Assembly (NCBI GenBank): GCA_037447655.1
Contig: JBBHKE010000200.1
Coordinates: 1 to 64,000 of the forward strand
Direction of reading: 5' to 3'
Source: Zygnema cylindricum
Lineage: Eukaryota; Streptophyta; Zygnematophyceae; Zygnematales; Zygnemataceae
DNA: 64,000 nucleotides
Shown here: piece by piece, positions 2,300 to 52,370 of the stretch
Position numbering within the stretch: position 1 is the stretch's first letter
How the letters are laid out: each line of letters opens with the position of its first letter
The notes under the pieces: model-generated
What the model was told of the DNA's origin: nothing
What the model saw: the letters and a program-made list of their open reading frames with translations, nothing else
The model's database searches: none
Made by a program: the position numbers and the translations under genes

Positions 2300-2633
2300 T
2301 CTCCCAGCAAAGAGAAGGCCACGTGTCAGGAAAAAACCTAGGTGGAAAGTAAATGATCGCAGGGTTCTCCCGGCGTTTCTCTTCCGGCCGCCGATTGGCT
2401 CTGGCGATCGGCTCGACCCGACGAAGGCGCCTGTCGCTGAGAGCGAAGAACGCTCCTGACGGAACCAATCGGAGGGCTCCGTTTGAGATTATGTCGAAAT
2501 CAGTCGCCAGCAAATCCCAGCTAAGGAGAAGCTTTTGAGATAAAACGCTGCCGCTCGAACATACTCTGCAGCAGTCTTCTCACTCTCACTACACACTTCA
2601 AACTCCTCTCTCCCTCCGTCTTCCTCAGACGCC
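2300..2633 (+). promoter_or_regulatory. Promoter and 5' leader of the LHCII gene
   Basis: A G-box core CACGTG sits at 2320-2325 (context GCCACGTGTC). A CCAAT-type box occurs on the minus strand near 2391-2397 and on the plus strand near 2463-2468. A GATAAAA motif near 2539 could act as a TATA or I-box. The leader just before the ATG is pyrimidine-rich and free of ATGs. G-boxes and GATA/I-boxes are typical of light-regulated plant photosynthesis promoters. Assigning them to this gene is inference from position. Confidence 0.5.
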
Positions 2634-4115
2634 ATGGCTGCCCTCGTTGCTTCCCCCGCCCTTGCCCCTTCCACCTTTGCCGGACAGACCTCCGAGCTCG
2701 CTCGCCAGGTCGGCAATGGCAGCGCACGTGTGGTGATGAGGAAGACTGCTGCCAAGCCCAAGGTCTCCGAGTCCATCTGGTACGGAGCTGACCGCCCTCT
2801 CTTCCTGGGCCCTCTCTCTGGCCCCCCTCCCTCCTACCTGACCGGAGAGTTCCCCGGAGACTACGGCTGGGACACCGCCGGCCTCTCCGCCGATCCCGAG
2901 AGCTTCGCCAAGAACCGTGAGCTCGAGGTGAGAATAAAGATGGAGTACACCTGGTAGTTCGGAATAGTGGTCGGCTGCTATGATTTTGTAAACGTTTTGT
3001 GCATAGTAAAGGTCGATCTTCGACATTGTTTCCAGTTTTAAAAGTGCCGACATTGATAATCTCTTAGCTGGCAATCCTGACGTCCTCCACTGGTAGTGAA
3101 TTATCGTTCATTTACTTTCTTTTCTCAGTTTTATTTTATTCATCTGATGCTGCTGCACCTTGTGGCAGTTAGCAGCTGTTGCTACTCTTTGGCATTGTTT
3201 TTCTGCAATGTCAGAGATTCAGCTGTGGCTGCTTCTTCGTTTTACTTATTCCTGTGACTTTCTGTGACTTTCTGTGACGTAATACTAGTTTGCATTGCTC
3301 AGTTGCAAACGTATCATCCGAACGTATCTTATTTTGTTCATCTGATGCTGCTGCACCTTGTGGCAGTTAGCAGCTGTTGCTACTCTTTGACATTGTTTTT
3401 CTGCAATGTCAGAGATTCAGCTGTGGCTGCTTCTTCGTTTTACTTTTTCCTGTGACTTTCTGTGATGTTATTTAAGTTTACATTGCCCAGCTGCAAGCGT
3501 ATCATCCGAACGTATCTTGCCTCTGTTTTCTCCTTGTTCCCTGCCCCGTTGTTACAGCGTCCATTCGAACCCTAGCTCTGACCCTAACCTCGCTCCTCCT
3601 CTCTCTGGCAGGTGATCCACGCCCGGTGGGCCATGCTGGGCGCTCTCGGTTGCCTGACGCCCGAGCTCCTCTCCAACAGCGGCGTGAAGTTCGGCGAGGC
3701 CGTGTGGTTCAAGGCCGGAGCCCAGATCTTCGCTGACGGCGGCCTGGACTACCTCGGCAACCCCAGCCTCATCCACGCCCAGAGCATTCTCGCCATCCTC
3801 GGCACCCAGGTGGTGCTCATGGGCGCCATCGAGGGCTACAGAGTGGCCGGAGGCCCTCTGGGAGAGGTGACCGACCCCCTGTACCCCGGAGGCAGCTTCG
3901 ACCCCCTCGGTTTGGCTGACGACCCCGAGACCTTCGCCGAGTTGAAGGTGAAGGAGCTCAAGAATGGGCGCCTTGCCATGTTCTCCATGTTCGGATTCTT
4001 CGTCCAGGCCATCGTCACCGGAAAGTCTCCCCTCCAGAACCTCTCCGACCACTTGGCTGACCCCGCCACCAACAACGCCTGGGCCTACGCCACCGCCTTC
4101 GTGCCCGGCCAATAG
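2634..4115 (+). CDS. LHCII type I chlorophyll a/b-binding protein (Lhcb), two exons
   Basis: This is an antenna protein of photosystem II that binds chlorophyll a/b and carotenoids in the thylakoid membrane as part of trimeric LHCII. Exon 1 is 2634-2927 (98 codons) and exon 2 is 3612-4115 (167 codons plus TAG). The intron (2928-3611) is GT-AG, phase 0, and splits the conserved helix B motif just before VIHARWAM. The 265-residue product has the usual family length. Residues 1-35 are a Ser/Ala/Arg-rich chloroplast transit peptide. The mature N terminus MRKTAAKPK is followed by WYGADR, near the canonical WYGPDR trimerisation motif. Helix B ([16 protein letters not shown]), helix C (around [20 protein letters not shown]) and helix A ([15 protein letters not shown]) are all present with their chlorophyll-ligand Glu/Asn/His/Arg residues. 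GC content and codon use are much higher in GC than the surroundings, as expected of a highly expressed gene. Identity as LHCII is secure; the exact Lhcb number is not. Confidence 0.96.
3132..3525 (+). repeat. 198-bp tandem duplication inside the LHCII intron
   Basis: Two near-identical copies sit head to tail. The phrase beginning CATCTGATGCTGCTGCACC occurs at 3141 and again at 3339, a period of 198. Both copies end with a CGTATCATCCGAACGTATCT phrase. Only scattered substitutions and a small indel separate them, so the duplication is fairly recent. It lies wholly within the intron. Confidence 0.9.
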
Positions 4116-4875: not shown

Positions 4876-5927
4876 TCGGAATATAAATATTAAATCCCAT
4901 GTGTCTATTTTTTTTTCTTAAATTTCTTTGGTTGTTTCATATTTATGAAATCAGGTCCAAAGCTTCTTTTAATATCTGTTTTTAACTGAAAGAGGAAGGA
5001 GACAACTGCTCTTCTTCACTGGATTCCACTCCATTCTTTAAGCTGTTAAATGATTCATACAATAAGGGAGGATCGCGACAACTGCCCGCTATACGGAGTA
5101 TATCATAATTCTTTTCTTTTTATTTTTATGGGGAGTATTACGATATAAAGTTCAAGGTAGCGGCCATTCAGGTGGTGATGAACCGAGTTCATGTGATGTG
5201 ACAGAGACATGGAGAAATAAAAGTTTATGAAAGCATTAATTATGTTAAGGTTTACGTAGTATCTGCCAATTCTTCAGATTCAGAGGTTAAAATGAGTAGT
5301 AGGGAAGGTATGTAAGTGGCCAGCTTGTCCTCGTTATCTGATTGTAACCTTTGTTTCTCATGAAGGGGTTGATTGGGGTTCAGTGCGCTAACATGTTGTG
5401 AATAGTCTGGGACGTCTCCTGGTTTCTCTCTTTATGTTTCTCACCTTTTTTGTGCTCTTTGATTTGACATGAATTGGAGGTGCAGTAGGGGGGGGGAAGA
5501 AGCCTGTCGACAGAAGTGTGGAAAGTTGAGAATATAGCATGCATTGCTTATTTGAACTTCATTGCATTAAATTCACTGCAATGCTTATTTTTGCTTCTAC
5601 CACTTGGTGTCTGTCTTTTCTTGCACCATTTGGTAAGCGGTTGAGGAATTGTTAACATTGCTCGGGCCTAAATTAGAGTTGACAACATAACATAAGCCTC
5701 ATGCTCCATCACTATTCACTATTGATAGTGTGGCAGTAGTTGACTTAAACTGCAATGTGGACACGTTTTTTAGGAGGTCAGGGTGAGACTCCAGTAAGAA
5801 AAGCGTGATGGTAAACCATCTGGTAAGTTATGGGAACCAAAGAATAAAGGCATAATTACTTTTTTCTAAATGCAGCAAACGTTTAGTCGCAAAACGTTTT
5901 TGGTGCGGGCGGAAACTTCTTGTCAAT
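4876..5927. other. No gene seen
   Basis: AT-rich sequence follows the aspartate kinase stop. The first part is probably its 3' UTR. A nine-G run occurs near 5490. I find no coherent coding frame, TIR or tandem repeat. Confidence 0.35.
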
Positions 5928-6277
5928 AGCCATTTTCAGCCATGGATTTACCCTCGGAAGCACCACAGACTACCTCAACAACAGCCTACTTTGAGTCCAC
6001 TCAGAATTCTTCAGAATAAAAAAAACAGGCTGAAACTACACGAACAGATATTTTCTAGGCCACTTTGTATTCCCAAAAATTTTCATAAAAATATACCAAA
6101 CAGAATTATTACACCACTCAGTCAAAGTTGCAGAAAAACAGTCTGCCAGAACTTTGATAAATCTGACCAACTTCACAATGAAGTTCCAAGCAAACCAGAC
6201 ACACAATAGGTCTGCAAATTTGCCACAATATTTCCAATACAAAGAGGAACACACATGCAAAATTTCAGATAATTCTG
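5928..6277 (+). repeat. Dispersed repeat, copy A (second copy inverted at 19002-19346)
   Basis: This ~350-bp block matches the reverse complement of 19002-19346 along its whole length at roughly 85-90% identity by eye. Shared phrases include GGAAGCACCACAGACTACC, CTCAGTCAAAGTTGCAGAAA and CAGACACACAATAGGTCTGC. The other copy lies at the 3' end of the gag region of the gypsy element. I see no matching TIRs or target duplication here, so this is either a gypsy fragment or a separate short interspersed element. Confidence 0.85.
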
Positions 6278-13416: not shown

Positions 13417-13990
13417 TTACCCGCCCAATTCACAGTTTCTGCAGAACCATGGACTAGGGGATGGAGGGCGTGGTTCCCATGAGGAGGGGAGACAAGCTGG
13501 ATGCCAGCACTGCCCGCACTGATGGCAGACCAAGATGTCTTGCTGCTGGGAGGACAAGTTGCAGGATGATGAACAGGAAGGAGGATCGACAAAGTAAGTC
13601 AAGTGGAAAGTGGAGTCGTCTTCTAATCCTCGGAGGTGACAAGGGGCCACATTGATTTGATTCTCTTTAATTCTTCGCCCATCTTTCCCTTCCAAAGTCA
13701 GAACTCTCTTATTGTAAACTTCCACCACTTTCAAGATCACCCGCCCAGCAGAAATTTCAAGCGTGTCCTTTTTCTGTTGCATGCGATTAACAAAGTCTCC
13801 CGGCATAAATCGTCGTTGTCGGGGCACATAATCTCCGCTCTGGCGCTGGGAATACCACAATTGATCCCGGTGTTGTGCCGCCTGTAAATTCCCCATGGCG
13901 AGAGGCATCTTCCGGTTGAAAATTTTGGCACGGTCGGCAATCAGTTTTTCAACAATTCCCTTGTCATCCATTGCCGGGAGGACCACCGCT
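13417..13990 (-). pseudogene. Gypsy integrase C-terminus fused to a PHD-type zinc finger
   Basis: The frame encodes the integrase C-terminal module (FMPGDFVNRM ... GRVILKVVEVYNKRVLTLEG) followed by a Cys-rich tail ending in GG at a TAA/TAG-type stop at 13417. In the 233-residue open frame the tail has C182, C186, C198, C201, H206, C209, C226 and C229. Spacing from C198 on is C-x2-C-x4-H-x2-C-x16-C-x2-C with a Trp two residues before C226. That is the PHD finger pattern (C4HC3), although the first pair is C-x3-C rather than C-x2-C. PHD fingers commonly bind histone H3 tails, so by analogy with chromodomain-bearing chromoviruses it may direct integration to particular chromatin. That role is inference. 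A frameshift near 13985-13995 separates this part from the integrase core. Confidence 0.8.
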
Positions 13991-14990
13991 TGGGCAGAGG
14001 CAGCTCGGGCAGAATGGGATGCCGTCCGAGTAAAATGAAGTAAGGGCTGTAGGAGTGAAGAGAAGCCTGTCTGCTGAATCGGTATCCCATGGCAATCCAA
14101 GGCACCCTTCTGTCCCACTCTCCCAAGTCTTCTTCAACGGCATATTTCCGTAGTGACCGCTTCACTGTCTGTACGCACCTCTCGGCCAAACCGTCGGCTT
14201 GGGGGTGGTCGCGGCTGGTAAGTCGATGGTCGATGAGGCATTTCTCCAAAAGATTGGTAAATTCTCCGGCGAATTCCGATCCCTGGTCGGTCAGAACCTC
14301 TGCCGACGCCCCAAACTGTGACAGGACTCTCTGCAGAAAGGCGTCGGAAATGGACTTAGACTCCTTTTGGGGCAGGACCACAAGCTCTATTCATATTGAG
14401 AAATGTTCAATCATGACCAGAACGAAACGATTCCCACGTCTGCTGGTCGGAAGAGGTCCCAAAAGATCCAAAGACCACCGATAAAACATTCCCCTGATGG
14501 GAAGAAAATGGAGCTCAGTCCCGCCCTTTTTGTCAAATGCCGCCTTAACTCGATCGCAGGAAGAGCAAGTCTGTACAATTCGGTTGACTTGGGCCCGCAA
14601 CCCGTGCCACCAGTAAGAGCCTATAACCAAGGAAGTGGTTCGCTTCTGTCCGAAGTGTCTACATTGTTTATGGAGATTAGTAATCAGAGTTTCTCGATCT
14701 GAGGGAGGAGGAACCACTCTCCTAGTACCGTCTGCCCATTTCGGGAGGAGCACTCCTCGGTCCCACTCATACGCAGCCATCCGGGTCTGAACTCGGGATA
14801 ATTGAATTCCAGCCAAGTGGGGAAGAGGGGATCCTTGCTGAATAGATTGGAGAGCTTCGGAGTCATTCCAAATGTCTTTCCGTCCGGCTCCCATGGGTGC
14901 CTGCCCCTCAACATCTGCTGCAAAAGTTGACAATTCCCCCCCAGATGGAAGAAGCCAAATGAAGGCGGAGGATGCTCGAATGAGTCCCAA
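13990..14990 (-). pseudogene. Ty3/gypsy integrase (zinc-binding domain and DDE core)
   Basis: Integrase inserts the cDNA copy into host DNA. The HHCC zinc-binding domain is seen as LHKQCRHFGQKRT ... CSSC. The core has the first Asp in WSLDLLGPLP, the second in LTDQGSEF and the Glu in DHPQADGLAER, so all three catalytic acidic residues remain. An in-frame TGA at 14391-14393 interrupts the core. The upstream and downstream segments are in the same frame, so it is a simple nonsense change, probably from TGG. Confidence 0.92.
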
Positions 14991-16420
14991 ACTGATTTCC
15001 GGATCCTCGTCGTGCCGAGCCCCGGTGGAATCCAAGGTAGAAGGATCGGGGTTTCGGCTCAGTCCGTCGGCATTCCTATGAATTTCCCCTGCCCGGTGGA
15101 CAATGCTGAAATCATATTCTTGCAGGATAAGAACCCATCTGCCGATTTTGCCGGTCAACTTACTATTTTCCATGATCGACTTCAAGGGTTGGTGATCGGT
15201 GATTAGTGTGAAATGGACCACGTACAAATAAGGTCTGAATTGCTGGATGGCCCAAACCGCGGCAAGAAGCTCCCCATGTAACTGCTATAATTTCCCTCAG
15301 CTCGGTTATTGCTCCGGCTGGCGTAAGCCACCACATACTCGGCACCTGCGTCGTCAACTTGAGCCAAAACAGCTCCCAATCCAAACCTGCTCCAATCAGT
15401 GTAAAAGAGGAAAGGTCTCTGGTGATCAGGCATCCGGAGCACTGGGTGCTGCTTCAGGGCATCCTTCAAGAACTGGAAAGCGATCTGCTGTTCCTCGGCC
15501 CACTGCCATTCTTGATCTTTCCGTAATAGCTTATTGAGGGGCTGGGCGTGACTACTGAACTCGGGAATAAACCTGCGATAGTAGTTAGCCAGGCCGAGAA
15601 AGGTGCGCAAGGCAGAAATGTCCTGCGGGGGAGGAAGAGCGTCGAGGGCTGCAACCTTCACCATATGGGGACCCAATGTCCCAGGAGTTACCTCATGTCC
15701 GAGGTAAATGATTTTCTGCACCCCAAAAATACCCTTGCCCGGGTGACATTTCAAGCCCGCTGCTTGAAGAGCCCGGAGAACGATCTGGATATGCTCCAGG
15801 TGTTCTTCAAAGGTCTTGGAAAATATTATCACATCGTCGATGTAGCATTTGGCACAATCGATTCCTCGGAGCGCTTCGTCCATGGCCCGTTGGAACTTTG
15901 CTGGTGCATTCTTCAGTCCGAAAGGCATGTAAATCCACTCATAAAGTCTGGATCCGGCCCAGAATGCCGTTCTCTCCCGGTGTTTTGGTTCCATGGCAAT
16001 CTGGTGGAAACCATTCTTCATGTCCAGTGTGGAGAAAATAGTGGCCCCAGCGAGAGAGTCGAATATCTCTTCCGGAGTTGGCATTGGGTACCGGTCAGGA
16101 ATGGTGGCCGTGTTCAACATGCGGTAGTCCCCACACATTCGGAAGTCCACAGTTTTCCCGGATGAATCCTTCTTAGGAGGGAGAACTGTGGGGGAAGCAA
16201 ACCCATGGAGTCCGGTACTTTCCTGAACCAACCCTGCGTCCACCAAAGTTTGAACCTTTTCAGTAATAAACTCTTTCTCCTTGAAGCTGAGAGGATATTG
16301 TTTCTGCCAAACCGTTGCGGTTTCGTCGATCAAATCTATCCGAAAGGGGGTTCATTTGTAGATTCCGACGTCTGTTTCGGACCATGAGAAAACCTGAGTG
16401 TTTCTAGCCAAGAGTTCTGT
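14990..16420 (-). pseudogene. Ty3/gypsy reverse transcriptase and RNase H
   Basis: RT copies the element RNA into DNA and RNase H removes the RNA. The frame from 16333 encodes the RT with LDMKNGFHQIAM (first catalytic Asp), FGLKNAPAKFQR and the active-site YIDD, then the connection FLGLANYYRRFIPEFS and RNase H starting LFYTDWSRFGLGAVLAQ. RNase H continues in a different frame from 15227 (LITDHQPLKSI ... RKADGLSR-like NADGLSRNP), so a frameshift lies between 15203 and 15227. Upstream of 16333 the same frame reads on through a TGA at 16352-16354 and a TAG at 16436-16438 into the methyltransferase. Confidence 0.95.
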
Positions 16421-16599
16421 TAGCTGTTCTTTCTGCTACGGGTCCAGCTGCTCCCTCAGAGTCCAGTCCATTTTTCCCGGCTCAACCGCAACCCAAGCTT
16501 TCGGTGGTCTTCCCCAGAGGTTGATGTCGAATTCTAGCCCAACCTGTGGATCTGCCTCTATTCCTCCGGATAATACTTTACTGCCGACAACTTTTGCTA

Positions 16600-17864
16600 T
16601 GCTGTCTCCTTCTAAGCTCCCCCCCGCTGAAGGAACTCTCGGGTGTAGATTTTTTCTCTTTTCTCTCCCCCCCTCAAGCTGCAAAGTTGCTTGCATGGAC
16701 AGTAACTGTGGAGCTTGAAGGTAATTTCTGCGTGAATCTGGAGCGTGGAGATTGGAATAGGCAAGAGCATTCTTTACAACCCATGTAATGGAATTTAAAT
16801 CCATGTTTTGCCCTATGATGCTGCACCGCTGTAGGTCTGAAATACCTGGTGCTGCCGTGGTTTCCGGATGAAATCCCATTGCCTGTTCTCGTTCCGATAT
16901 TGTTGGTGCTATCCAAAGTCTTTCCTTGCTGTCAAAAATCATTCCAGCTGCTCCTTTCCGGTAGGCGTGACTGTGAGGAAAAGATACCAACGTGGGGAGT
17001 GCTCGACGTGGGAATCCGGGGATATTGCATTGGAAGAAAGGTGTACGATCCGGTTTTGTTACAGGTGTCGCCATTCTCCCTTTTCCAAGTATCTGCTGCA
17101 CTGAAATCTGGGGGTCGGGGGTTTGTGTCTCCAACAGTTGCCGGAGGACTGGAAGAAGGATCATATTGGTCCAATATGCCCGGAGTCTGTGCGCTCGAGA
17201 TCCCATTTGAGCAGCGTCAAAAACCAAGAATACAGGTTACCTGATTCCAACTTTCTGCAACCTGCTTTCGTTTATCATCCCCCGGATGGACATTCTCCAG
17301 AATGTACCCCACTGGTGTGTCTTGGAGCTGCTGAATCCACGATATCAATGTAATCATCTGATAGAAGGTTCCACTTCGGTGGTCCTGATGCCCTCTTCCT
17401 TGTCCTGCTAGGGAGTATCTTTGACAAGGCCATCCCGCCACAACCAGATCTACTCTTCCCAGATTAGCTAAATGAGGTGCCATTATATTATCCACATTCT
17501 GGGGAAGACTCCGGTGAGCTTTCGAAATGGAAGACACTGGAAGCTGTTGAGGATATAAGCGGTGCAGTTGATGTAGGCGGTGTTCGCTGACAACTCGCGC
17601 TTCCGGTGAAATTTCTACTGCTGTGTATGACTCCACTCGATACCTTGCCTTTAAAACTGCCTTCAAATCAGAACTGATTCCTGAAAATAAAGATAAAATC
17701 TGAAGTCCGGAGTCTAGGACTGTCAATGACACCACTTGTCGATTGAAGTCCTCGCTCCCAGTCTGGGTTTTGAAAACATCTGACTGGATCGTCGAATCTG
17801 TTTTCGGTAATAGTAAGGCCGAGAATATTTGATCCACTCCCCGCCGGAGTTTCGCCACCTGCAA
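16600..17864 (-). pseudogene. C5-cytosine DNA methyltransferase domain within gypsy Pol
   Basis: C5-cytosine methyltransferases transfer a methyl group from S-adenosylmethionine to cytosine in DNA. In the 215-residue first segment (17864 to 17217) motif I is LSLFSGI at residues 57-63, motif II is AVEISPEAR with Glu84, motif IV is GWPCQ with catalytic Cys147, and motif VI is ENV at 190-192. The second segment (from 17227) has motif VIII GSRAHRLRAYWTN, a motif IX-like RALPTLVSFPH, and the terminal SEREQAMGF and SIIGQ (motif X-like). All catalytic motifs are therefore present in order. A single-base slip in a T-run near 17225 separates the segments. The second segment is in the same frame as the RT, with only two stop codons between them, which shows the enzyme was part of the Pol polyprotein. 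The PCQ form resembles DNMT1/CMT/bacterial enzymes more than DNMT3 (PCN), but family placement needs a tree. DNMT-carrying gypsy elements are known from charophytes. Confidence 0.92.
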
Positions 17865-17959
17865 TAATCTGTCTGTGTATTCTCTCTCCCACCGCTTGGA
17901 AATCGGGAATTGCTAGATGTCTTCGGCAATATCTGTGGAATTGTCAAACAGCTCGGCCG

Positions 17960-18480
17960 AAGAGGTGGTAGAATACACGGGGTAACAGCCAGACACCGGA
18001 ACATTGGTCTTTCCCCGGTTCCATAAATCCAAAGGAACCACAACTTTTGTTTCTTCGGGATTTCCTGGGTCTCAACTGTACATTGCTCCTTCCAAACACT
18101 CAAACTCATATTCATGCGGGTCCAAGTTGTCATTCCCAACAGAATTTCAAACTGATTCCCTTCTACCACTAAGAAAATAAGTCCAATTTTCACCTTTTGT
18201 CCCTCATCATCTGAGAATTCAATGTCCATGGCTTTGATGATCCCATGGACTGGCTGTTTTCGCTGCTGACTGTGCTCAAGCAGATGTTACTCGGGCAGAT
18301 CTGGGGTCCGAGTTCTTCCGGCATTTTTTGCAATGCAGAAGTAGTTATGAGGTTGGGAAGGGCTTCCGTATCCACCACAGCGTCCTAATACCCGCCGTAC
18401 CCATTCAGTTTTAAATTCCCGGTCCGGTTTAGAATGAGTGCCACGGAAAAAGTTTTGTAGTCCCTATCCGCCATAGGGGT
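17960..18480 (-). pseudogene. Gypsy aspartic protease with mutated active site
   Basis: A retropepsin that would cleave the polyprotein. The active-site stretch reads AVVDTEALPNLITT, where the family has D-T/S-G. The Gly is replaced by Glu (codons at 18364-18372), a single G-to-A type change. A TAG at 18385-18387 lies just upstream in the same frame. The C-terminal half (FEILLGMTTWTRMNM) is in another frame from 18229. The domain is inactive in this copy. Confidence 0.8.
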
Positions 18481-19001: not shown

Positions 19002-19346
19002 TTATTTGAAATTCTGCATGTGTGTTCCTCCTTGTATTGGCAATATTGTGGCAAATTTGCAGACCTATTGTGTGTCTGATTTGCTTGGGGCTTCATTGTG
19101 AAGTTGGTCATATTTATCAAAGTTCGGGCAGGCTGTTTTTCTGCAACTTTGACTGAGTGTTGTGATTATTTTGTTTGGTATTATTATATGAAATTTGGTG
19201 GGAATACTAAGTGGCCTGGACACTATTAGGTTGAGTAGTTTCAGATTGGTTTGGTTATTCTGTGGATATCTGAGTGGAATCAAAGTAGGCTGTTTTGGGG
19301 TAGTCTGTGGTGCTTCCGAGGGTACATTCATGGCTGTAAATGGCTA
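19002..19346 (-). repeat. Dispersed repeat, copy B (inverted copy of 5928-6277)
   Basis: The minus strand aligns with 5928-6277 over its full length. It begins where the gag frame loses its zinc-knuckle-type composition and ends near AATAATTC, also the end of the match in copy A. It could be a short element inserted into the end of gag, or gag-linked sequence of which copy A is a stray piece. No clear target duplication is seen. Confidence 0.8.
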
Positions 19347-21213
19347 GGAACAACAGAGCAGGCCGATAAGTCGACCCCAAACGAAGTGCAGCCAATTGTG
19401 CAGCCATGGCAGCCATCTGCTGACTCTGCTGTTGGATTATTATCTCTGGTGTAAGTCTTGCGGGAGCAGTCGTTAATGGTTTTGGCGTCACTAGTGTAGG
19501 CAGCACTGGGCGCTCCCAAGGATAAAGGAGTTCTAGGGGAAGAGGGTTAACGGCAGTCTCTCCTCCTCCTGTGAACAAAGCGAATTGCATCATTTCCTTA
19601 GGTATTCTGTTCTTCCGGAAACATTGTCCCTCCTTGTGCCCCATAAAACCACAGGCTTCGCATTTGTGACCCTCAGTGGTATACTTGCTTCGAATCTCGT
19701 TGGAGATCTGAGCATCGTCAAACTTTGGCAGTTTGATTTGCCGCAGTTGGGACTGGGACATTTTCGAAGTTTCGCTCCGGGGAGTGGGTCGGTAATTGTT
19801 CTTTGTGACCGGTGTTCTCTCCCCCCCCCCTGCTTTGAGCCTTTCTTCATGCTGCTTCTGGCTCCTTTCTGAACGCTCTACCTCCCATTCTTTCAACTTG
19901 AGGGCTAGCTCCGGTTTGAGTTTCCTGCTGCAGCGTTTCCATCCATGTCCAGGTTGTTGACAATTTAGGCAATTGTACAGAATCACCCGATCGTCGGCCC
20001 CCATTGCATGTTCTGGCCCGCTGTCCACAACTTGCTTCCCTTTAAGCTTCCGCAAAGCTTGGAGTTCCGCTTGTTCTTCCCCACTTAAGGAAGTTTCCCC
20101 GGCGAATCCTGCAAAATTCGCTCTTGCCTTGCCGGTCACGGCTTTTTCTCTCGCCTCACTGTGAACGAAGTGGTCGTATAACTTCATGGCCACCAGGGAT
20201 ATGTCCTTGGCCGAGGGATTTATGTCCTGGATGGCCTGTCCTGCGATCCATTTATCCAAGGCAGTCTGCCCTGTCGGTCCGAAGGAATTACGGACAGCAA
20301 TGAAATACTTGGTCGCCATTGCAGGAAGGTCAATGGTAGACAGTTTAGTCTTCTCACAAAGACTAGAGAGGCGGTTAAAGAGTGTCTGAGGCGTCTCATT
20401 CTTCAAACACTGGAATTCCGTGAATTCCTTGATGGCAGATTCGTTCCTCTCGGTGTAGAGGACTCTCCAGATGTTTAGAAGAGTGGTGCAAGGGGTAGGA
20501 TTCGCCACGATACGAGTAGCAGCCCGAGCTGCCTGAATTGCTTGCAGCTAGTTAACATAGGCCCTCCCTTGAGCCTGCAACTTAATATCATCGATGAAGG
20601 TAGCTGTTACAGGGGTCACCGCTGCGGTAGCCAAATCTGCCTCCGCTCGTAAAACTTCTGCATCCAGGGCCGGATCTGAGATTTTGATGCTTCGAGCCAT
20701 CAAGAGAGGTTGACGCTCTTTATAATCTGCCAACGCCCCTCCAGAGAGGTAGTTGACCATCATGGGAAAGAGAGTTGTTTCGAAGTCGTCAGGAATAGCT
20801 CCTCCCCTGTACTTGTTAATTTCAGATTGGGTGAAGGATTTCCACAACAATTCAAAATCAGAGAAAGCAATCCCAGAGCTATCTCCTGTAAAGATTTGGA
20901 TGTCCCCCATTTCCTTTTCCTCCTCTGCCGAATGTGTGAATTGAGACAAGGAAGGTGCGGTGGGATTGACAAACTGGGCTGGCGAAGTGGCTCCTAGGTC
21001 CTCTTCCTCGGGAATGGATCCGACTCCTCCTCCGGTAGGAGGTGTTGCCCTGAGAGGTGTGGAATCTCCTCCAGCAGAGGAAGTACCCGTGCCTAGAAAT
21101 GTGGTAGGAGGAAGGGTATTCCTTGACGATTCTCTTGTTGCAGAGGATATCCGTGTCTGTGGGCCTGTATGTCCGACTGAAGTAGAAGGGGCCCACTCCC
21201 CTATATCGACCAC
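19347..21213 (-). pseudogene. Gypsy Gag (capsid and two zinc knuckles)
   Basis: Gag forms the virus-like particle and binds element RNA. The capsid-like region contains ALLNIWRVLYTERNESAIKE-type helices and FNRLSSLCEKTKLSTIDLPA. Two CCHC zinc knuckles follow: CLNCQQPGHGWKRC and CEACGFMGHKEGQC. A single in-frame TAG at 20548-20550 splits the frame; both sides are in frame, so it is a point nonsense change. Gln/Ala-rich and Thr/Pro-rich segments lie at the ends. Confidence 0.85.
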
Positions 21214-23160: not shown

Positions 23161-25925
23161 GACGAAGGTCTCGAAAGAGGAATTAACGACAGAAAACAAT
23201 ACTCGCTTCCGCCAAGAGAGCTTCTAAAGTCAAAAAGCTCCTATCACCTCTAATCCAAAGGAGACAGGTGGGCTTTTCAGTACTGTGCTTATTCCACAGG
23301 AAGTCTATAGCATTCGTTCCCTCAAAACCCACTGTTTCGATGCCAGGAAATTGCAGTTTTACCCCGGGAAGTCCCCGCCAAAGCAAAAGAGACTAAAAGT
23401 GAAGACACAAATGCACTACCACGTGGACAAATAAAAATAAATAGGAATGGTTGTTTCAGATTTAACAATATCACCTTGACCACAGAAATAAAATATAAGA
23501 TGGAAGATATAAAAGATGGCGAAGCAAGCTAAACATACCCCGGCAATTTACGATGACAATGGGAGAAAGGCGAAATCTCTCCTGATGGCAGTGTAAATAG
23601 GTATGGTACTCCTTCAACCCTCGGTGTCCGCAGCTCAGAACCGACTAGACTCTTCTCAGTTTCAAGCAGCGAAAAATCCAAAAATCACCCAAAGGGACGG
23701 TAGTGCCAACCACCAGCCCGAACTATGATTCCCAAAATGGACAAATCCAAAACAGAGATGGCAATAGAGTCAAACAACACAAAGCTTCTCCAAAAGAAGG
23801 TTTGTTGGAATTTCTGAGGGTTTTCACAGGAGACAGTACTGAAAAGCAACCTGTCTCCTTCGGCCCCAAGCGCCCTATACATCAAAGTTTGTCCAAAATC
23901 AGGTCCAAAAGTCAAACCTACGATATTAGCCAATGAGCGACCACCAACGACAATCAAACTGACATAGGACAAAATAATGTGTACTACTCTTGGGGCAAAA
24001 AGTTGGACCTCTGACCACGGCTAGATCCGCGGCCGGAAGTTATTATTTCTTCCACAGTTTTTAAGACAAAGTACTAAAAAGACACGGAAGTGCCAAGCTT
24101 TGACTTAATGTAATTAATTAACCACTGGTCAGCTGAATCTGAACTGAATTGCTACAGACACCTAACAGCAAAATCAAGATTACAGTCCGGAAGTCTACGT
24201 GGCAATCCACAATTTACCCTCCACTAGGGCTGGTGGAAGCTAGTACTATGTGACGGAACTGCGATCTTTCAGACGGTAGAACTTTGTCGTCCAGCCTCCG
24301 TTAGGCACGAAACAAAGTGCGTCTTGTTCAGTAGAGGAAATACTTCAATCCTTCCGGCAGGTTGTGCGGGCTTCTCCGAAATCTGAGAATAGTACGGGTC
24401 GGAAGGGTACGGAAATCCTCGGTAATATAGAAGTGTGCTTGAAAAGCACTCGAGCCTGACAACAATGTAGTATAAAGCACAGTTATATAGTATATTGTAT
24501 TTCTTACACCTATCAACAATAAAACAAATTGTTGGTTTCGGAGCGATATATCAAGACCCCTCATCGTTTGACAGCCGATAATTGTCGTTATCAGTTTTAT
24601 CGCGATCCTATTATTCTTGATACATAACAAAACAAATTTTACATTGAAATTGGTCGATTTGTAAAATCTTCGACAATTTTTAATGTATAATTTTGAGCTT
24701 ACGTGGTGCCACTCAGAACATAATACTCAAGCCAAAGCTTGTATCCTAATTGCAACTCGTCCTTAATATTACAGCCAGTTTAATTGTCCGTACAATTAGT
24801 AACACCTCTCAATGGAACTAGACCCTTAATATTGACAATTTATTACCTCTACGCCATTAACCATGATCAGCTAGCTCACCACAGTTTAACATCAATTTTG
24901 TAAAACTCAACTTCATAACGAAAATTTCGTTGTGCATATTTACACTACAATTTCTCTTTCAAAATTTTTTGTGATTAAATAAAAAAGTAAGGTGTGAAGA
25001 TGTAAGGTTATTTTAGCGGTAAGTATAAAAGTATTTGATAACCAAGCGTGGCCTCTGTTGTAACCTTTCATTTTGACTAAAATTGTGAGGTTAGTTGGTG
25101 ATCGAAGTGTTTAGTCAACGATGTATGCTTTTTGTATTAAGCTCAAATTAGAACAATGTTCCTGTTTTACTCACCTTACTTGCGTGTAAACATTGGAGGT
25201 TATTTTTCAGGTGATCATCCGTTTCTGTGCGATCATTTACAGGTAAATAAAAAAGGTTGATCTTGAGGTGTTGGAATTGTGCCCTGATTGATAAACAGAC
25301 ACCTACATTTAACCAGATTGGTGAAGTAGTATCCATGTGTCAAGACGTAGTTATTGCTCTAAATGATTAAGCATTTAGATAGTCTTTTTAAAGTATTAGA
25401 AAAGGTTTTGAATACAGGCATTCCTTAAGGCACGCCTAGATAGGTTAACCATTCTTAAAAAGATGTTGCACGCTAGAAGGAAAACTACTTCTGAATTGCC
25501 AATCAATGGTACTAAAATCGTAGAGAAAGATTGTAAGGGATCTCGTAGAGGGTCTTAATGGTGAATTTTGAATATGAGCACACTCGCATCCTCGAACCTA
25601 AACGCAATCCACAAAAGAGTGGGTACCAAAGTGACACCAAAAAATAGATTAAGAGTGCGGTGAGTGTGTTTAAAGGTAAAGTTTGAAGATGACGTCTCAT
25701 GATTTGGCGTTGTCTAAAAACACAGTGTAAGGGTGGCCTTCCATTAGCAAAAAAATGGGGTTTTTTACTGATGGTCGTACCGTTTCGTAAAGGTCCATAC
25801 AGAAATATTTTTTTCAAGGAAAACATCATTACAGAAAAATGTCCAAGGTTTAAGTTGTAAATTCGGACCATCGGATGCTATTACACATATTATCCGAGAC
25901 GCCACATCATTAACCCTACAGTGTG
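23161..25925. other. No gene or recognisable element
   Basis: AT-rich sequence between the gypsy and copia elements. I searched it for a second copy of the candidate gypsy LTR and found none. No TIR pair or tandem repeat stands out. It could contain the lost 5' end of the gypsy element, too diverged to see. Confidence 0.4.
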
Positions 25926-25930
25926 TTAAG

Positions 25931-26497
25931 TGTTAGGATATTGTACTGAGCACTTACTTAGGGACGAGATAATCATGTAGCTAACGTAGCGACGACTAGC
26001 GACGAAAGTAGTCTCGTCGCTAGATATTTGAAGTGACGTAGAAGTTAGCGACGAAGTAGTTTCTTTGCTCGATATTTGAAGTGACGTAGAAATCAAGTGT
26101 TCATTTCGTTTCACGTATGTTTGAATAGTACCATAGAAGTGACGTGGAAATTGCTTGGTAGTTTTGGTTCACGTAAGTTCAAGTCGTACCGTGTGATTCA
26201 AGTTGGTTCGCGGTTGACTTTTCTAGTCTTACCGTGTTTGTCTAACCGGTTCGCAATTTTCGGTCGTATGTTTCGGCACGTTGACTCTTACGCGTTTTAG
26301 TTGTGTACATATATATACTTGTTGGGACTTAGTAGTAATCTATCTTTTGGAGGCGTAGCTTGTTAAGGAGGCGTTAAAAGGTCAGAAGTAAAAGGAAAGA
26401 AGAACAGAAGTTGTATTTGCATTGTGCTTAATATATTGAATGTTTTTGGAGGAACACCGTTGTTGTGTGTGTATTTTATCTGGTTTGTAATCTATCA
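25931..26497 (+). repeat. 5' LTR of copia element 1
   Basis: TG...CA termini. A TATA-type sequence (ACATATATATAC) near 26307-26318 likely drives transcription. The U3 part has two ~50-bp tandem units carrying the phrase GATATTTGAAGTGACGTAGAA, and the inverted repeat TAGCGACGA/TCGTCGCTA. Confidence 0.95.
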
Positions 26498-26499
26498 AT

Positions 26500-26514
26500 T
26501 GGTATCGGAGCGGG
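26500..26514 (+). other. Primer-binding site of copia element 1 (tRNA-iMet 3' end type)
   Basis: TGGTATCGGAGCGGG starts two bases after the 5' LTR. It resembles the common plant copia site TGGTATCAGAGC, which pairs with the 3' end of initiator tRNA-Met, with one mismatch. Confidence 0.85.
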
Positions 26515-26535
26515 TTACTGGCAACACTTGCCGGT

Positions 26536-27345
26536 ATGGCGGAGAAAGGGAAATCCGCGGCGAAACCTAGTGGAGGAGCTAGTGGGGGAGTTAGTGGAGG
26601 AGGAGTTACAGGGACACAATATGATGAGTATGACAAATGGGGGGAGAAAAATGTGAAGATGGAATAAGGAACGTTTGAACGCTTTCAAGAGTTTCTCAAA
26701 ACACAAGAAGATGATGGAGATGGAGGAGTAAGTGGAGACTCACATAACTCTAAGAAAATAAAAAGAAAGAAGGGTAAATCTAAACTTATTGAGACAGAGG
26801 CGGAGAGCATAGATGATGATTTTAAAGTGTTTAATAAAACCATTGTCTTCACGGGTTCCAACTATGCAATTTGGAAGAGATACATTCGAGGAGCATTCAC
26901 ACTGAAAAAACTTTGGGACATCGTTATCGGGGAAGAAACACGACCGGATCCTTCCGTGGATCTAGCCGGAGCACATAAGTGGGACAAGAAAGATATGGCG
27001 GCCTCCACCGCACTTATACAAAGTTGTGCTAGTTCTATGCATGAACACTTTCTAACTCATGATAGGGCTTTTGATTGTTGGACCGCTTTGCAAAATGCGT
27101 TTGAAAAAGGGTTTGAGGCAAATGAAAATTATCTCTTTGAAGAATATATTGGATTTAGAATGAAGGAGAATGAGTCCATTGATGATGGAGTCAAAAGGTT
27201 TAATGTCATCATAGAACAACTTAACTCACTCAATAACTTTCCTACAGAAAAAGAAAGGTTGTTTGTCTTTATGAGGAGTCTTCCAAGCAAGTTTGCAGTA
27301 GCAAATGAGGTTATCAAGGGGCGAGAGAACAAATACCTACGGTAA
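26536..27345 (+). pseudogene. Copia Gag (UBN2-type), element 1
   Basis: The frame starts at ATG 26536 (MAEKGKSAAKPSGGASGG) and continues through one in-frame TAA at 26665-26667 to 27345. It has a typical copia Gag core: FTGSNYAIWKRYIRGAF, LWDIVIGEE, CWTALQNAFE, DDGVKRFNVIIEQLN and LPSKFAVANEVI. No CCHC knuckle follows, because the sequence jumps to integrase-like sequence. Confidence 0.88.
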
Positions 27346-27349
27346 AACA

Positions 27350-27520
27350 CTTAAGGATTTGGGGATGTGAGGTTATAGGATACATAGAGGAAAGAAATCG
27401 GGGGGGAAAATTTGCTGCACGGTCATGGGAAGGATATTTTGTGGGATATAGTCAGAACTCAATGCAGTAAAGGATTTACAACCTAGTTATTAGAAGGGTT
27501 AAAGAGTCTAGAAATATGGA
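27350..27520 (+). pseudogene. Remnant of copia integrase C-terminus, element 1
   Basis: After the Gag frame the sequence reads RSWEGYFVGYSQNSMQ and then RIYNLVIRRVKESRN in a compatible frame. This is the conserved tail of copia integrases (K-x-GYFVGY ... YR-x-Y). Everything between the Gag core and this point is deleted. Confidence 0.8.
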
Positions 27521-29542
27521 GTTTAATGAGAACTTGGAATCGATGGTGAAAGGAGCTAATGAGTCTAAACGAGCTCAAGATTATGAGGAGGAGAGTCATT
27601 ATGAGAAGTTCACTGGAGAGGAAGAGGAAAAGGATGAAGTTTTGATTGAGGTTGGGACGAAGAAAAAGGTGCGATTTGTAGAGAAACCTTTAGAGAAAGT
27701 TTCGACACCTAAGCTAAGCGGCACCGCATCACAAGGAGATAAGGTCATCAGAGAATCACTTAGTGGCACTGACAACGTGATACCAGAAGAGACAACGAGG
27801 ATGATGACAAGATTGAGAACAGTGATTCAGATAAGGAATTTGCAGAAGACGTACGGAGAAGTATGAGATCCACTAAAGGGAAGGCACCGGAACGATTCTC
27901 ACCTGGACAATCATATAAAAAGCAAAATAGCTACCAGAGGGCAATTTCCGAAATTAGAGAAGGAAAGGCGGAATCTTTTCTCTTATGAAAGGCAATTACA
28001 GAAAATCGTCCGGTGGATCCTCAATCTTATCATGAGGCTCGAGACTCGGACGAATGGGAGGAGAAGTGGAAACCGGCGTTTATCAAAGAATTTAATTCTG
28101 TATAATCAAATGGGTGTTTTGAAGAGGTAGATTTACCGTTTGGTAAGAAGGCGATAGACTCAAAGTGGGTTTTTAAGACAAAGACAAGAGCTTCGGGAGA
28201 AATTCTTAAGTATAAGGCACGGTTGGTATGTAAGGGCTTCCAACAAAAGAAAGGTATTGACTATTCGGAGACATTTGCTCCTGTAGTTAAGTTCAATTCA
28301 TTGCGCGCAATTATTGCAATGGTGGCGGCAGGAGGAATGCACATCCAACAGATGGATGTAAAGATAGCCTTTTTAAATGGTGAATTGGAGGAGGAGGTGT
28401 ATATGAAAATTCCAGAAGGAGTTCCTGGAAAGAATGGTAAGGTATGGAGGTTGTGGAAGGCTTTGTATGGTTTGAAGCAGGCACCAAGAACATGGAACCA
28501 TAAACTTCACAAGGTTTTATTAATTTTGGGATTTAAGAGGCTTACTACAGATTGTGGAGTGTATATTCGGGGAGAAGGTTGGGACATGATAATATTTAGT
28601 GTATACGTCGATGACTTTATTTCCATCTCTCACAACTTGGAGTTACTTGGAGAAATAAAGATTGAATTTCGAAAGCACTTTAGAATTACAGATTTAGGGG
28701 ATGCACAATACATTGTGGGAATTCAGATTCAGAGGAGGAGGAACGGAGACATTAAGTTGAGCCAAGAGCAATATGCAAAAGAGGTACTACAAAGGTTTGG
28801 GTTCTTAGATTGTAAGCCACTTGGAACTCCACTTGATCCTCCTGACAAGCCTTCTAACTTTGTTAAAAGTCTCAAGATTGATTCCCCGTATAAGGAGGCG
28901 GTCGGAAGTTTAATGTACTTGAGTGTCGGTACTAGGCCAGACATTAGTGCCGCAGTGAGTGTGGTTAGTCGGTATTGTAGCAATCCGAAAAAAATACGTT
29001 GGGAGGCAGTGAAGAGAATCTTTAGATATTTGGCTGGAACACTTAGTCTTGGAATAGTTTATAGGAAAGGTGAGAGCTTGAGTTGTTATGGATATTGTGA
29101 TGCCGACTATGGAGGAGACCATGATACAGGAAGGTCTACGTCAAGATGTGTGTTTTTACTTTCAGGAGGAGCTATCTCGTGGAATTCCCGTTTGCAACCT
29201 ACTGTGGCACTTTCATCAACGGAGGCGGATTATATGGCTGCGTGTCATGCTGCGAAGAATGCTGTGTGGATTAAAGAATTTCTATTGGAGGTTGGAGTGG
29301 AAAAAGAATGCATGCAAATACTAAGTGATAATATGTCTTCCATTGCACTTAGTAAAAATCCTATTTTGCATAAGCGCACTAAACACATTAAAATTTAGTC
29401 GCATTTTGTTCGAGATTTGGTTGCGGAAAAAAAAGTTGAATTTTCGTTTGTTCCGACAGAAGAACAAGCTCCTGATATGTTAACCAAAGCAGCATTAAAG
29501 GAAGTCTATGAAATGGGAAAGAAGTTAGTGGGCATGGAGTAA
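27516..29542 (+). pseudogene. Copia reverse transcriptase and RNase H, element 1
   Basis: A charged linker (27516-27866) leads to RT and RNase H. RT shows DSKWVFKTKT, QQMDVKIAFLNGELEEEVYM and the active site YVDD at 28604-28615. RNase H shows DADYGGDHDTGRSTS and STEADYMA. A TAG at 29396-29398 truncates RNase H, and the frame continues open to TAA at 29540-29542. The region just before RT also has stops and frame changes. Confidence 0.92.
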
Positions 29543-29565
29543 GAGGGGGCTTTGAGTGTCTCAGT

Positions 29566-29576
29566 AAGAGGGGGAA
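29566..29576 (+). other. Polypurine tract of copia element 1
   Basis: AAGAGGGGGAA immediately precedes the 3' LTR. It is the expected plus-strand primer site. Confidence 0.85.
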
Positions 29577-30143
29577 TGTTAGGATATTGTACTGAGCACT
29601 TACTTAGCGACGAGATACTCATGTAGCTAACGTAGCGACGACTAGCGACGAAAGTAGTCTCGTCACTAGATATTTGAAGTGACGTAGAAGTTAGCGACGA
29701 AGTATTTTCGTCGCTGGATATTTGAAGTGACGTAGAAATCAAGTGTTCATTTCGTTTCACGTATGTTTGAATAGTACTATAGAAGTGACGTGGAAATTGC
29801 TTGGTAGTTTTGGTTCACGTAAGTTCAAGTCGTACCGTGTGATTCAAGTTGGTTCGCGGTTGACTTTTCTAGTCTTACCGTGTTGTTCTAACCGGTTCGC
29901 AATTTTCGATCGTATGTTTTAGCGCGTTGACTCTTACGCGTTTTAGTTGTGTACATATATATACTTGTTTGGACTTAGTAGTAATCTATCTTTTGGAGGC
30001 GTAGCTTGTTAAGGAGGCGTAGAAAGGTCAGAAGTAGAAGGAAGGAAGAAAAGAAGTTGTATTTGCATTGTGCTTAATATATTGAATGTTTTTGGAGGAA
30101 CATCTTTGTTGTGTGTGTATTTTATTTGGTTTGTAATCTATCA
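29577..30143 (+). repeat. 3' LTR of copia element 1
   Basis: Same length and termini as the 5' LTR, with substitutions concentrated in the AGCGACGA-rich part of U3 and scattered beyond. Confidence 0.95.
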
Positions 30144-45949: not shown

Positions 45950-46981
45950 TGTAGAAACTAATGGATTTATTAGTATTTTCTAGGTCTAAATAGAAATAGA
46001 AAGAAGCCGAGGCAGTCTATCTCTAACTTCTCTCTCCAACTCTCAAACTTGTTGCAGTCACTGAGAAGTTGGAGAGGAAGCTAGAGCCATGGCTATCCTG
46101 AAGTTTACGGGAATTTAATACTAGGGTTTATTTATTTAATTAAAAGTTAAGCGCCGGCGACAGGATTTGATCCCTGTACCTACCGGCCGGCAGATAGGAA
46201 ATAGCCGGTAGCCTTAGCCGTTAGGTCTAGCTATAGTGATACATACTATATAGTTTGATAATTATTTAAAGATGTATACGTACGATAAATTCATTTAACT
46301 GTTACGGATTACGGGATACATAGATCCGGTACGGATGACGGTACGGATTACGAATCAATACCGCGCATTTGTTTCGGAAGTGAAATAAATACCGCGCATG
46401 TATTTATTACGGCTAAGATTAAATCTGAATTTAATCGGACGGCCGGAATTAGCGCCGAGATCGCGGAGGGAGATTTCGGCGGTTTGTGGCCATCGCCACA
46501 TCGGATGACACGTGGCGAAATTCCGTTGGATTGTAGAATCTCCGGAGATTATGGCACCGAATCCGGATTCGACATGTGTCGACATTTAGGCCATGTCGTA
46601 CAATGTCCGTACTGAAAGTACACCGGCGGCTGTACTTTTGCGTACGGAACTCAATTCTGATTGGTTCCGTACATCAGTAGATAGAGTCTGTGAGAGAGAT
46701 AGGACTTAGAAAAATTAGAAGATAGGACCCTCTCTCCCAGAGAGCTTCTGTACAAAAGGTCAACTTTGACCCTCCATAACTTACTCCTCAGGGGAGCAAA
46801 TTCAGAGATTCTTTTTGCTACTGACTCAAGGGAGTCTTGCCTTCACAGGGGTGCAGGTTGTCAGGGTTTTTGTCTGCCAGGGTGGCAGTTATTTTTGCTT
46901 AAACACAAAGGGGTCAGGATTATCCTAGAGGCTTCTTGGAAGCTGTCCACTCTGAGGACTTATGGAGGTCTCAGAGTTACA
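45950..46981 (+). repeat. 5' LTR of copia element 2
   Basis: Contains a TATATAG box near 46249, several TACGGATTACG-type repeats at 46260-46350, an AATACCGCGCAT direct repeat, and a tRNA-like block on the minus strand at 46151-46233. The Gag frame opens inside this LTR at 46962. Confidence 0.97.
46151..46233 (-). other. tRNA-like A-box/B-box block, antisense in the LTR
   Basis: On the minus strand TAGACCTAACGGCTAAGGC (46211-46229) resembles a pol III A box of class II tRNAs. GGATCAAATCC (46163-46173) resembles a B box, set in a T-arm-like stem ACAGG/CCTGT. A CCGGC/GCCGG stem lies between them. No acceptor stem can be formed, so this is not a functional tRNA. An identical copy lies in the 3' LTR at 51535-51617. 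Confidence 0.45.
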
Positions 46982-48086
46982 GGTTATGGGCCCACCCTCT
47001 AGGGTACCAATCTTTAATGGAACTGGCTTCATATACTGGGAAAGTATGATGATAGGAGCTCTATGCGAAAAAAGGTTTTGGGGGATAGTGAGTGGACGAT
47101 TGGGGCGTCCATCAAGTCTTGGAATTCCTCTAGGGTTTGGAGGAAGCAGATTCACCAGGAAAGAGGATTCACCTTCAACGGAGGAAACAAAGGAAGGAGA
47201 GGTGGTGGACAAAGGAAAGGAGAAGGAGGCGACCACACCAATAGCAACTGGTTTAGCATTCATGTCACCTATTCCGAGGAACGAGGAGAATGATACTGAA
47301 ACCTGGGACTTCAACAATATGGCGGCAAAGCACTTCATCCTACGCCATCTCACTCAAGGACTTGCATGTCCTCATTTGCAGGTAGAAAGAGCATCCGATC
47401 TTTGGATGGCTCTCATAGAGATGTACCGAAGTGGTACGATTCAGCAACAACAGTTGGCTGATCAGAAAGTTAAGGAGTATGTATACAAAGGGGGAAATAT
47501 GTTGGATTTTTGCAATGAGCTTGCTACACTCTTCATGGAGCTACACAGTGCGGGAAAAGATTTTAGTGAAAAAGAAAAGGTTAACTGTTTACTGATGAAG
47601 TTACCTGATGAGTTCGTGAACATAGTTTACCGTGTGCAGGACTTGCCTGACTCAAGGTGGATATGGAACTTAGTGGTAGGGATGATTCTCGTTCAAGAGA
47701 ATACAATTGAGATCCGAAGGGGAGGAAAGAGTGGCCAAGCCTTGGCAACAGCGACTGATTGGAGGAACTGGGATTCCCGAAAACCGGTCAGAAACTATGG
47801 GGGTAGGGAGCAGAAAAAACAGGCAGATGAGTTCGAACCAAGGGCTCCCAAAGGTCTATGTCATTTTTGTAAGAAACCGGGGCACTATATGGCAGAGTGC
47901 ACTAAGCTAACCGAGCTTCGGTTAAAGGAGGGGCAGACCGGTGGTACCCCGAGAGGAAAGAAAAAGGCCCTTGTCACACAGGTACTTGAGGCTGAATCCG
48001 AGGACGAGGACGATGAGCTCCTTTTGGATGAGGAGATGGAGGCGAAAAAAGAGGTCGAAATTCCACGGAGGCAGAAATGTGCTTAG
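46962..48086 (+). CDS. Copia Gag, element 2
   Basis: Gag packages element RNA. The frame opens at ATG 46962 inside the LTR. A second in-frame ATG at 46986 lies inside the primer-binding site and is a more likely start if transcripts begin mid-LTR; a further ATG follows near 47046. The 374-residue frame contains a Gag core (FNGTGFIYWESMMIGALCEK; ILRHLTQGLACPHL; DLWMALIEMYRS; FCNELATLFMELH; LLMKLPDEFVNIVY). It ends with one CCHC knuckle, C300-x2-C303-x4-H308-x4-C313 (CHFCKKPGHYMAEC), and an acidic tail. It terminates at UAG 48084-48086. The next codons are in the same frame and start Pol. Confidence 0.93.
   Translation: MEVSELQVMGPPSRVPIFNGTGFIYWESMMIGALCEKRFWGIVSGRLGRPSSLGIPLGFGGSRFTRKEDSPSTEETKEGEVVDKGKEKEATTPIATGLAFMSPIPRNEENDTETWDFNNMAAKHFILRHLTQGLACPHLQVERASDLWMALIEMYRSGTIQQQQLADQKVKEYVYKGGNMLDFCNELATLFMELHSAGKDFSEKEKVNCLLMKLPDEFVNIVYRVQDLPDSRWIWNLVVGMILVQENTIEIRRGGKSGQALATATDWRNWDSRKPVRNYGGREQKKQADEFEPRAPKGLCHFCKKPGHYMAECTKLTELRLKEGQTGGTPRGKKKALVTQVLEAESEDEDDELLLDEEMEAKKEVEIPRRQKCA
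46982..46996 (+). other. Primer-binding site of copia element 2 (internal half-tRNA-iMet type)
   Basis: GGTTATGGGCCCACC follows the 5' LTR directly. It is complementary to the anticodon stem-loop of initiator tRNA-Met (GGGCCCAUAACC-type), and does not match the 3' acceptor end. Drosophila copia is known to prime from a cleaved half of this tRNA with a very similar site. The ATG in the site is the complement of the CAU anticodon. Confidence 0.8.
48084..48086 (+). promoter_or_regulatory. In-frame UAG between gag and pol, candidate readthrough stop
   Basis: Gag (phase 46962) and Pol (phase 48087) share one frame with only this UAG between them, followed by GGTGGA. There is no ATG in the pol frame before 48135, which is already inside the protease active-site motif, so Pol cannot start on its own. 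A small hairpin GTGC-ctctat-GCAC lies at about 48129-48142. Stop-codon suppression would set the Gag to Gag-Pol ratio. A fresh nonsense mutation is the alternative. Confidence 0.7.
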
Positions 48087-51320: not shown

Positions 51321-51333
51321 AAAATAAGGGGAG
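51321..51333 (+). other. Polypurine tract of copia element 2
   Basis: AAAATAAGGGGAG lies between the pol stop codon and the 3' LTR with no spacer. Confidence 0.85.
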
Positions 51334-52365: not shown

Positions 52366-52370
52366 GCTTT

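Follow-up and report, generated by a model that had tools for sequence, protein, structure and literature searches.

A gypsy retrotransposon family of Zygnema cylindricum with a cytosine methyltransferase, nearest to DNMT3, inside Pol

Introduction

Transposons are usually the targets of DNA methylation. Elements that themselves encode a DNA methyltransferase (MTase) within a gypsy Pol are a kind already known since 2018 from KnitGypsy-Dnmt3 of Klebsormidium nitens, which is described as having a DNMT3 with unrearranged motifs, DIRS-like repeats and a Ka/Ks below 0.2 (PMC5890265). The text of the same paper presents SymbioDIRS-Dnmt3 and SymbioLINE-Dnmt as unrelated to the K. nitens case; both are cytosine MTases encoded by retrotransposons, and the DIRS one methylates CG de novo. 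PAT/DIRS elements are described as having split direct repeats in the order A1-B1-A2-B2, and some of them encode a methyltransferase domain (PMC4157794). Here we describe an element of the KnitGypsy-Dnmt3 kind in a 64,000-nucleotide stretch of Zygnema cylindricum DNA (assembly GCA_037447655.1, contig JBBHKE010000200.1, positions 1 to 64,000 of the forward strand), which is called the window throughout. The element is a broken copy of a gypsy-type retrotransposon on the minus strand, at about 24.4-13.4 kb.

A preliminary description of the window, made from its letters only, cited retrotransposon DNMTs from gypsy elements and from dinoflagellate copia elements, some with de novo CG activity. 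The gypsy attribution and the CG activity agree with the text of PMC5890265, which gives DIRS and LINE, not copia, for the dinoflagellate enzymes; a 2025 paper mentions 'LTR Copia and DIRS'. No DNMT-bearing gypsy element of Zygnematophyceae was seen in the open-access literature listings and passages surveyed.

Results

The MTase of the window copy occupies 17912-16436 on the minus strand and is spread over two frames, with the break at about 17.22 kb. Segment 1 (17220..17912) carries motifs I (LSLFSG), IV (PCQ) and VI (ENV) in sequence and matches PF00145 at E 6.8e-10 with 39.3 bits (Pfam cut-off 22), a family that the intact frame of another copy, C1374, matches at 48.9 bits. Its match to TIGR00675 (6.2e-13, 49.1 bits) lies under the model cut-off of 100.65. 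Segment 2 (16439..17236) contains the region of motifs VIII-X, which reaches to about 16740, followed by a linker to the reverse transcriptase (RT); searched alone, it has no match in Pfam at E up to 1 and none in the PDB. The two segments are one enzyme split by the frame break, because the 281-residue ENA protein P0001 spans both, running from motif VI into segment 2 (41% identity over 160 residues in segment 1; 40% over 89 residues in segment 2, E 8e-15), and in copies such as C665, C161 and C1374 they are in frame with each other. The preliminary description had proposed a C5-methyltransferase between the protease and the RT, with a C-terminal segment that shares the RT frame. Both proposals stand: segment 1 matches the DNA_methylase family, so that the feared failure to match C5-methyltransferases did not occur, the motifs are in order, P0001 covers segment 2, and exactly two stops, at 16436-16438 and 16352-16354, separate that segment from the RT.

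Among solved structures, DNMT3 is the closest both by sequence and by fold (best E 5e-4), the fold result coming from later models that supersede the fold matches of a poor first model (P0002, mean pLDDT 43). The MTase is accordingly described here as DNMT3-type, in the sense that DNMT3 is its nearest relative in sequence and predicted fold. Motifs I, IV, VI and VIII follow the conventional order, unlike those of plant DRM enzymes, in which the order is circularly permuted (PMC5890265). A DNMT2-like enzyme that methylates RNA, either the element's or the host's, has a parallel in the RNA target proposed in that paper for the Symbiodinium LINE enzyme inactive on DNA. For the Zygnema MTase it is very unlikely, as fold and sequence are nearest to DNMT3 in a comparison that was made without DNMT2.

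The genome to which the window belongs (352,776,454 bases in 2689 contigs) was searched with segment 1 (150 of 1413 first-look candidates scored) and with the RT (108 of 4092 scored). Segment 1 yields 151 matches at no fewer than 150 places, with 63-100% identity; the window's MTase is one of them. Counted against the 150 MTase places listed, at least 48 of the 108 RT places have an MTase place upstream on the same strand, and the gap between the two is 845-984 bases in 47 of these and 1369 in one. Of the ten RT places closest to that of the window, which is one of the ten, nine have a listed MTase upstream. Around the 30 best MTase copies, again with the window's counted, the protease (PR) is found in 26 (including the window copy), segment 2 in all 30 and a downstream RT in 29. 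Ten RT copies sampled from the 60 with no listed MTase were inspected over 2.4-2.7 kb of upstream sequence, which contains 1791 N in one of them; every one has an MTase stretch upstream, with segment 2 recovered in all ten and segment 1 in six. As far as sampled, then, the MTase is a fixed part of this gypsy family. The preliminary description had allowed that other copies might lack the domain; neither the RT places with a listed MTase nor the sampled unlisted ones bear this out.

While a single copy was in view, a host gene inserted or fused by chance into that copy might have accounted for the domain. The near-constant spacing at 48 of 108 RT places, the ten sampled others and the recurrence of PR-MTase linkage in proteins of other origin (P0003, P0004, P0015 and P0079) now make such an origin extremely improbable. 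When human DNMT3A was scored at 138 of 510 candidates in the same genome (best E 2.8e-12), no stand-alone host DNMT3 gene stood out: many matching places are known MTase places or lie upstream of a gypsy RT or integrase (IN), and the remaining ones, which are unplaced, may include a host gene. The share of gypsy rows with an upstream DNMT3A match, 13 of 25, is a lower bound (47 of 138 matches, with C1344 entered twice) and is not relied on. One RT place, G000:C961:71443-72534, falls in a listed open frame of 5743 amino acids; this length probably reflects an assembly gap, because the adjoining stretch holds 1791 N.

The ratio of nonsynonymous to synonymous substitution rates (dN/dS) was computed over 78 pairs from 13 copies with an open segment 1, namely 11 of the 30 best copies including the window's, plus C1374 and C544. 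The median for segment 1 is 0.182 (range 0.084-0.461) among pairs with a defined dS above 0.02, pairs with no defined dS being outside the medians. For the 14 RT pairs whose dS exceeds zero, from 6 copies, the ratio is 0.014-0.34; copy L014 is left out for a stop in its stretch. The MTase evolves as under purifying selection. In an alignment of 64 rows (61 family domains and 3 references), motif IV reads PCQ in 44 rows, ECQ in 14 and otherwise in 6, with cysteine in every row; the catalytic cysteine is present in 61 of 61 family domains, and the glutamate of motif VI in 60, with aspartate in one. The ECQ rows comprise 11 elements of a second layout described below, RNaseH-MTase-IN, two rows named Closterium, and P0032. 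These 14 rows could point to a domain that has lost methylation activity and serves as a DNA- or RNA-binding or structural part of Pol. Such a loss is nonetheless improbable given the nearly invariant cysteine and glutamate, the dN/dS well under 1 and the PCQ of the window's family; the window copy itself retains PCQ and ENV.

Two copies of the family, C1374 and C544, keep MTase, RT, RNase H, IN and a PHD finger open in single frames of 1520 and 1525 codons, so that a search for intact copies, as the preliminary description advised, was successful. The gypsy-type order of RT, RNase H and integrase is present within one frame in C1374, where the PHD finger scores 17.5 bits, under the cut-off of 24 (window copy 25.0). 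The word relic, applied earlier to the window's element, suits this copy but not the family, in which long open frames persist and the repeat A of C1374 is doubled with no difference over 200 nucleotides.

In the window, an in-frame UAG followed by CAATTC (17913..17915, minus strand) stands between Gag-PR and MTase-Pol. The same stop directly precedes MTase-Pol in 31 of 32 copies, and the full UAG CAA UUC is present in 30 of 32, the exceptions being L015 (UAG UAA) and L022 (UAU). In C1374, a 279-codon frame with the protease stretch terminates at this UAG. The stop is retained while flanking codons vary, which suggests programmed readthrough that would give the MTase at a low Pol dose. The context rule for stop suppression is UAG CAR YYA, from which the UAG CAA UUC of this family is one base off.

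C1374 and C544 have sharp ends, TGTC...GACA, and measure 11,022 and 11,083 bases. No pair of long terminal repeats (LTRs) was found for the element in the window, nor in C1374 or C544. Repeat B, the 3' 200 bases, was scored at 40 of 293 candidates and occurs in pairs; the spacing is 1376-1405 bases on five contigs and 1011 bases on one more. Both of the copies examined on both sides, C1769 and C2183, show the order A1 (1.19 kb)-coding-B1-A2-B2. In the copies examined the ends are PAT/DIRS-like split direct repeats and not LTRs; in the window's own copy split direct repeats were not found. The first 200 bases of repeat A occur twice in C1374 and are identical, and for this reason that copy is probably young. 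Its second A and two more B copies lie about 4-5 kb beyond the first B, presumably displaced by a later insertion. An A+B piece in C544 would fit recombination of A1 with A2, and the A1...B forms would fit recombination of B1 with B2. A Pfam scan of the intact C1374 frame gave no tyrosine recombinase family at E <= 0.1, and rve and H2C2 are present.

A padded profile search returned 173 proteins at E <= 1e-3 among 7996 scored, of which 120 are listed, and domain order was judged in the 54 listed relatives longer than 480 amino acids with queries taken from the window. The MTase stands before the RT in 5 of the 54 (two named Closterium sp. NIES-53), after RT and RNase H in 14, and after RNase H in one more; in 8 it precedes H2C2/integrase with no RT, and in 26 it stands in a frame where neither RT nor integrase is seen. 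The MTase domains of the RNaseH-MTase-IN layout form one group with support 100/99, comprising 21 labelled rows, eight of whose labels rest on the integrase side only, and the unlabelled P0070. The corresponding rows are also grouped in the RT tree (14 rows, support 100/99). The MTase thus has two places in Pol, and the elements at each of them are diverse.

In the same genome a second family, C1344, encodes MTase-RT-IN-PHD in a frame that is open over at least 2273 codons, and its motif IV reads ECQ. It was considered as an MTase-free relative and ruled out, since an MTase (E 1.3e-79) lies upstream of the RT in the same open frame; C1407 was likewise ruled out by a DNMT3A match just upstream, in a listed 1757-codon frame. 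No MTase-free relative was found among the gypsy relatives compared. A PHD finger at the integrase C-terminus is also seen in the RNaseH-MTase-IN proteins and in the C1344 family; chromoviruses carry a chromodomain where this family has its PHD finger. Past the PHD finger, residues ~1690-1870 of P0043, an RNaseH-MTase-IN protein, contain by eye a second stretch, DPWAGTGTI ... TSPWF, which we take to be a class I methyltransferase-like motif; this C-terminal stretch has no Pfam match.

Read along the minus strand, the window copy comprises Gag-like open reading frames (ORFs), a protease-like segment, MTase, RT, RNase H, integrase H2C2 and core, and a C-terminal PHD finger. It starts at 24461 with TGTCAGGC, and its 5' terminal region (repeat A1, 23415..24461, starting TGTC) shares 73% identity with repeat A of C1374 over 24035-23415; 24463-24304 is 98% identical to copy C665. 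One Gag-like ORF (19258..20547) has two CCHC-like knuckles by eye and shares 74-75% identity with the Gag region of two further copies, and a Pfam scan of it gave neither a Gag nor a knuckle match. The protease-like segment (18190..18384) has no Pfam match alone and corresponds to residues 628-675 of P0015, which Pfam gag-asp_proteas covers at 625-713. Next come the RT and the start of RNase H (15206..16351; RVT_1 6.8e-29, RT_RNaseH_2 2.1e-22), then, in another frame, the remaining RNase H and the integrase zinc-binding domain (14394..15284; RT_RNaseH 6.4e-16, Integrase_H2C2 5.5e-14). The integrase core (13944..14390) matches rve at 4.3e-5 with 24.1 bits, under the Pfam cut-off of 32.6, compared with 46.1 bits in C1374, and the C-terminal part of the integrase (13420..14133) ends in the PHD finger (PF00628 1.9e-5, 25.0 bits, cut-off 24). 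Further frame changes occur in the RNase H and integrase. Similarity to C1374 stops at about 13.37 kb, with none found beyond, and the 3' end of the window copy is for that reason unrecognised.

The copy is also a mosaic. Its stretches 18911-18165 and 16235-15740 are identical to L008 (C161), and the MTase region between them is 91-97% identical to C161 and closer to C665 in most blocks, a pattern that looks as after template switching or conversion. A second fragment of the family lies at 5927-6275 on the plus strand and is 87% identical to 19346-18999. Elsewhere in the window are a young copia element (45950-52369) with open Gag and Pol frames and 1036-bp repeats 99.8% identical, an older copia-type element (25931-30143) with 567-bp repeats 96% identical, and a chlorophyll a/b-binding gene (2544-4112; PF00504, 2.4e-35 for its larger part), which marks the host as green. 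Nothing useful came from three scans of viral contigs, where L001 is a stretch of 28% identity; the 109 phage records matching the window are all generic and below 60% identity, and an RNA family scan returned none at or above threshold.

Discussion

The explanation that we favour, and regard as reasonably probable as a whole, is that the element in the window is one broken copy from a large gypsy family, still partly intact, in which a DNMT3-type MTase opens Pol, is made by readthrough of the UAG and methylates the element's own complementary DNA (cDNA) or new insert. The UAG would be read through at a low rate, so that the MTase is made and packaged in a small Pol dose together with RT and IN. 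The enzyme would then place CG methylation de novo on the element's cDNA or, alternatively, on the new insert while the integrase, which bears the PHD finger, brings it to selected chromatin. A copy methylated beforehand would resemble host DNA and have its own mark present from the first cell cycle. The use of the enzyme to the element is probably the methylation of cDNA or new inserts.

Several points weigh against this explanation. According to the text of PMC5890265, the K. nitens methylome resembles that of land plants, and CHH and CHG methylation lies on the copies of its element as on silent elements, so that no clear benefit is known; the Symbiodinium LINE enzyme that was tested did not methylate DNA. 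Readthrough is proposed from the conservation of the stop, which is absent from within the long open frame of the related element C1344. The dN/dS values come from open-frame copies only, which biases them down, and reach 0.39 and 0.29 in the least diverged pairs. In a tree with three reference enzymes, DNMT3A is a long branch beside DNMT1/HhaI.

The enzyme might instead act on host chromatin or old copies and not on cDNA, silencing the element and its neighbours and so reducing damage to the host or shutting down competitors. A benefit to the host is among the proposals in the Discussion of PMC5890265, and the PHD finger suggests contact with chromatin. The position in Pol, where the MTase would be made together with RT and IN, seems better suited to a step inside the particle, and we consider a host-chromatin role unlikely, if the most serious of the alternatives.

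Beyond methylation of its own cDNA or inserts by this one family, the two positions of the domain invite a broader proposal, which is tentative and which we rate at somewhat less than even. Green-algal gypsy elements may be an old lineage with a DNMT3-type MTase as a standing Pol domain that has moved (PR/MTase/RT versus RNaseH/MTase/IN), together with PHD-finger integrases and, for the window's family at any rate, PAT-like split repeats. If this is true, the MTase would be built-in epigenetic cargo and not a stray acquisition: such elements would methylate their own DNA during replication and read chromatin when they insert. A family in which the MTase is maintained by selection in many copies, and which has young open copies, makes the question of why a transposon would methylate DNA testable in an alga. 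Its gypsy split repeats, conserved UAG and two domain positions offer handles on element replication and on the spread of the domain.

The Zygnema family is of the same kind as KnitGypsy-Dnmt3, with a DNMT3-type MTase in a gypsy Pol, DIRS-like repeats and purifying selection (Ka/Ks below 0.2 there, median dN/dS 0.18 here). The two are likened by description and not by sequence, as the matches include no sequence identified as K. nitens. The K. nitens element is described as having fewer copies than those of Symbiodinium (PMC5890265); at least 150 MTase places are present here. The text of that paper mentions neither a UAG ahead of the MTase nor a PHD finger, nor a second position for the domain. 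Relative to it, the UAG boundary, the PHD-finger integrase, the copy number, the fixed presence and the two positions are new, although its figures or supplement may contain some of these. SymbioDIRS-Dnmt3 and SymbioLINE-Dnmt likewise have a cytosine MTase inside a retrotransposon, but these are DIRS and LINE elements, not gypsy. The PAT/DIRS elements share split direct repeats and, in some, a methyltransferase domain, but are described as using a tyrosine recombinase and having no integrase (PMC4157794), whereas this family has a gypsy-type rve integrase. SIRE1 offers the likeness of an in-frame stop that is crossed by suppression in a plant retroelement (PMC2829016), a feature predicted in the Zygnema family from its sequence; the stop of SIRE1 lies between pol and env, and that of the Zygnema family between Gag-PR and MTase-Pol.
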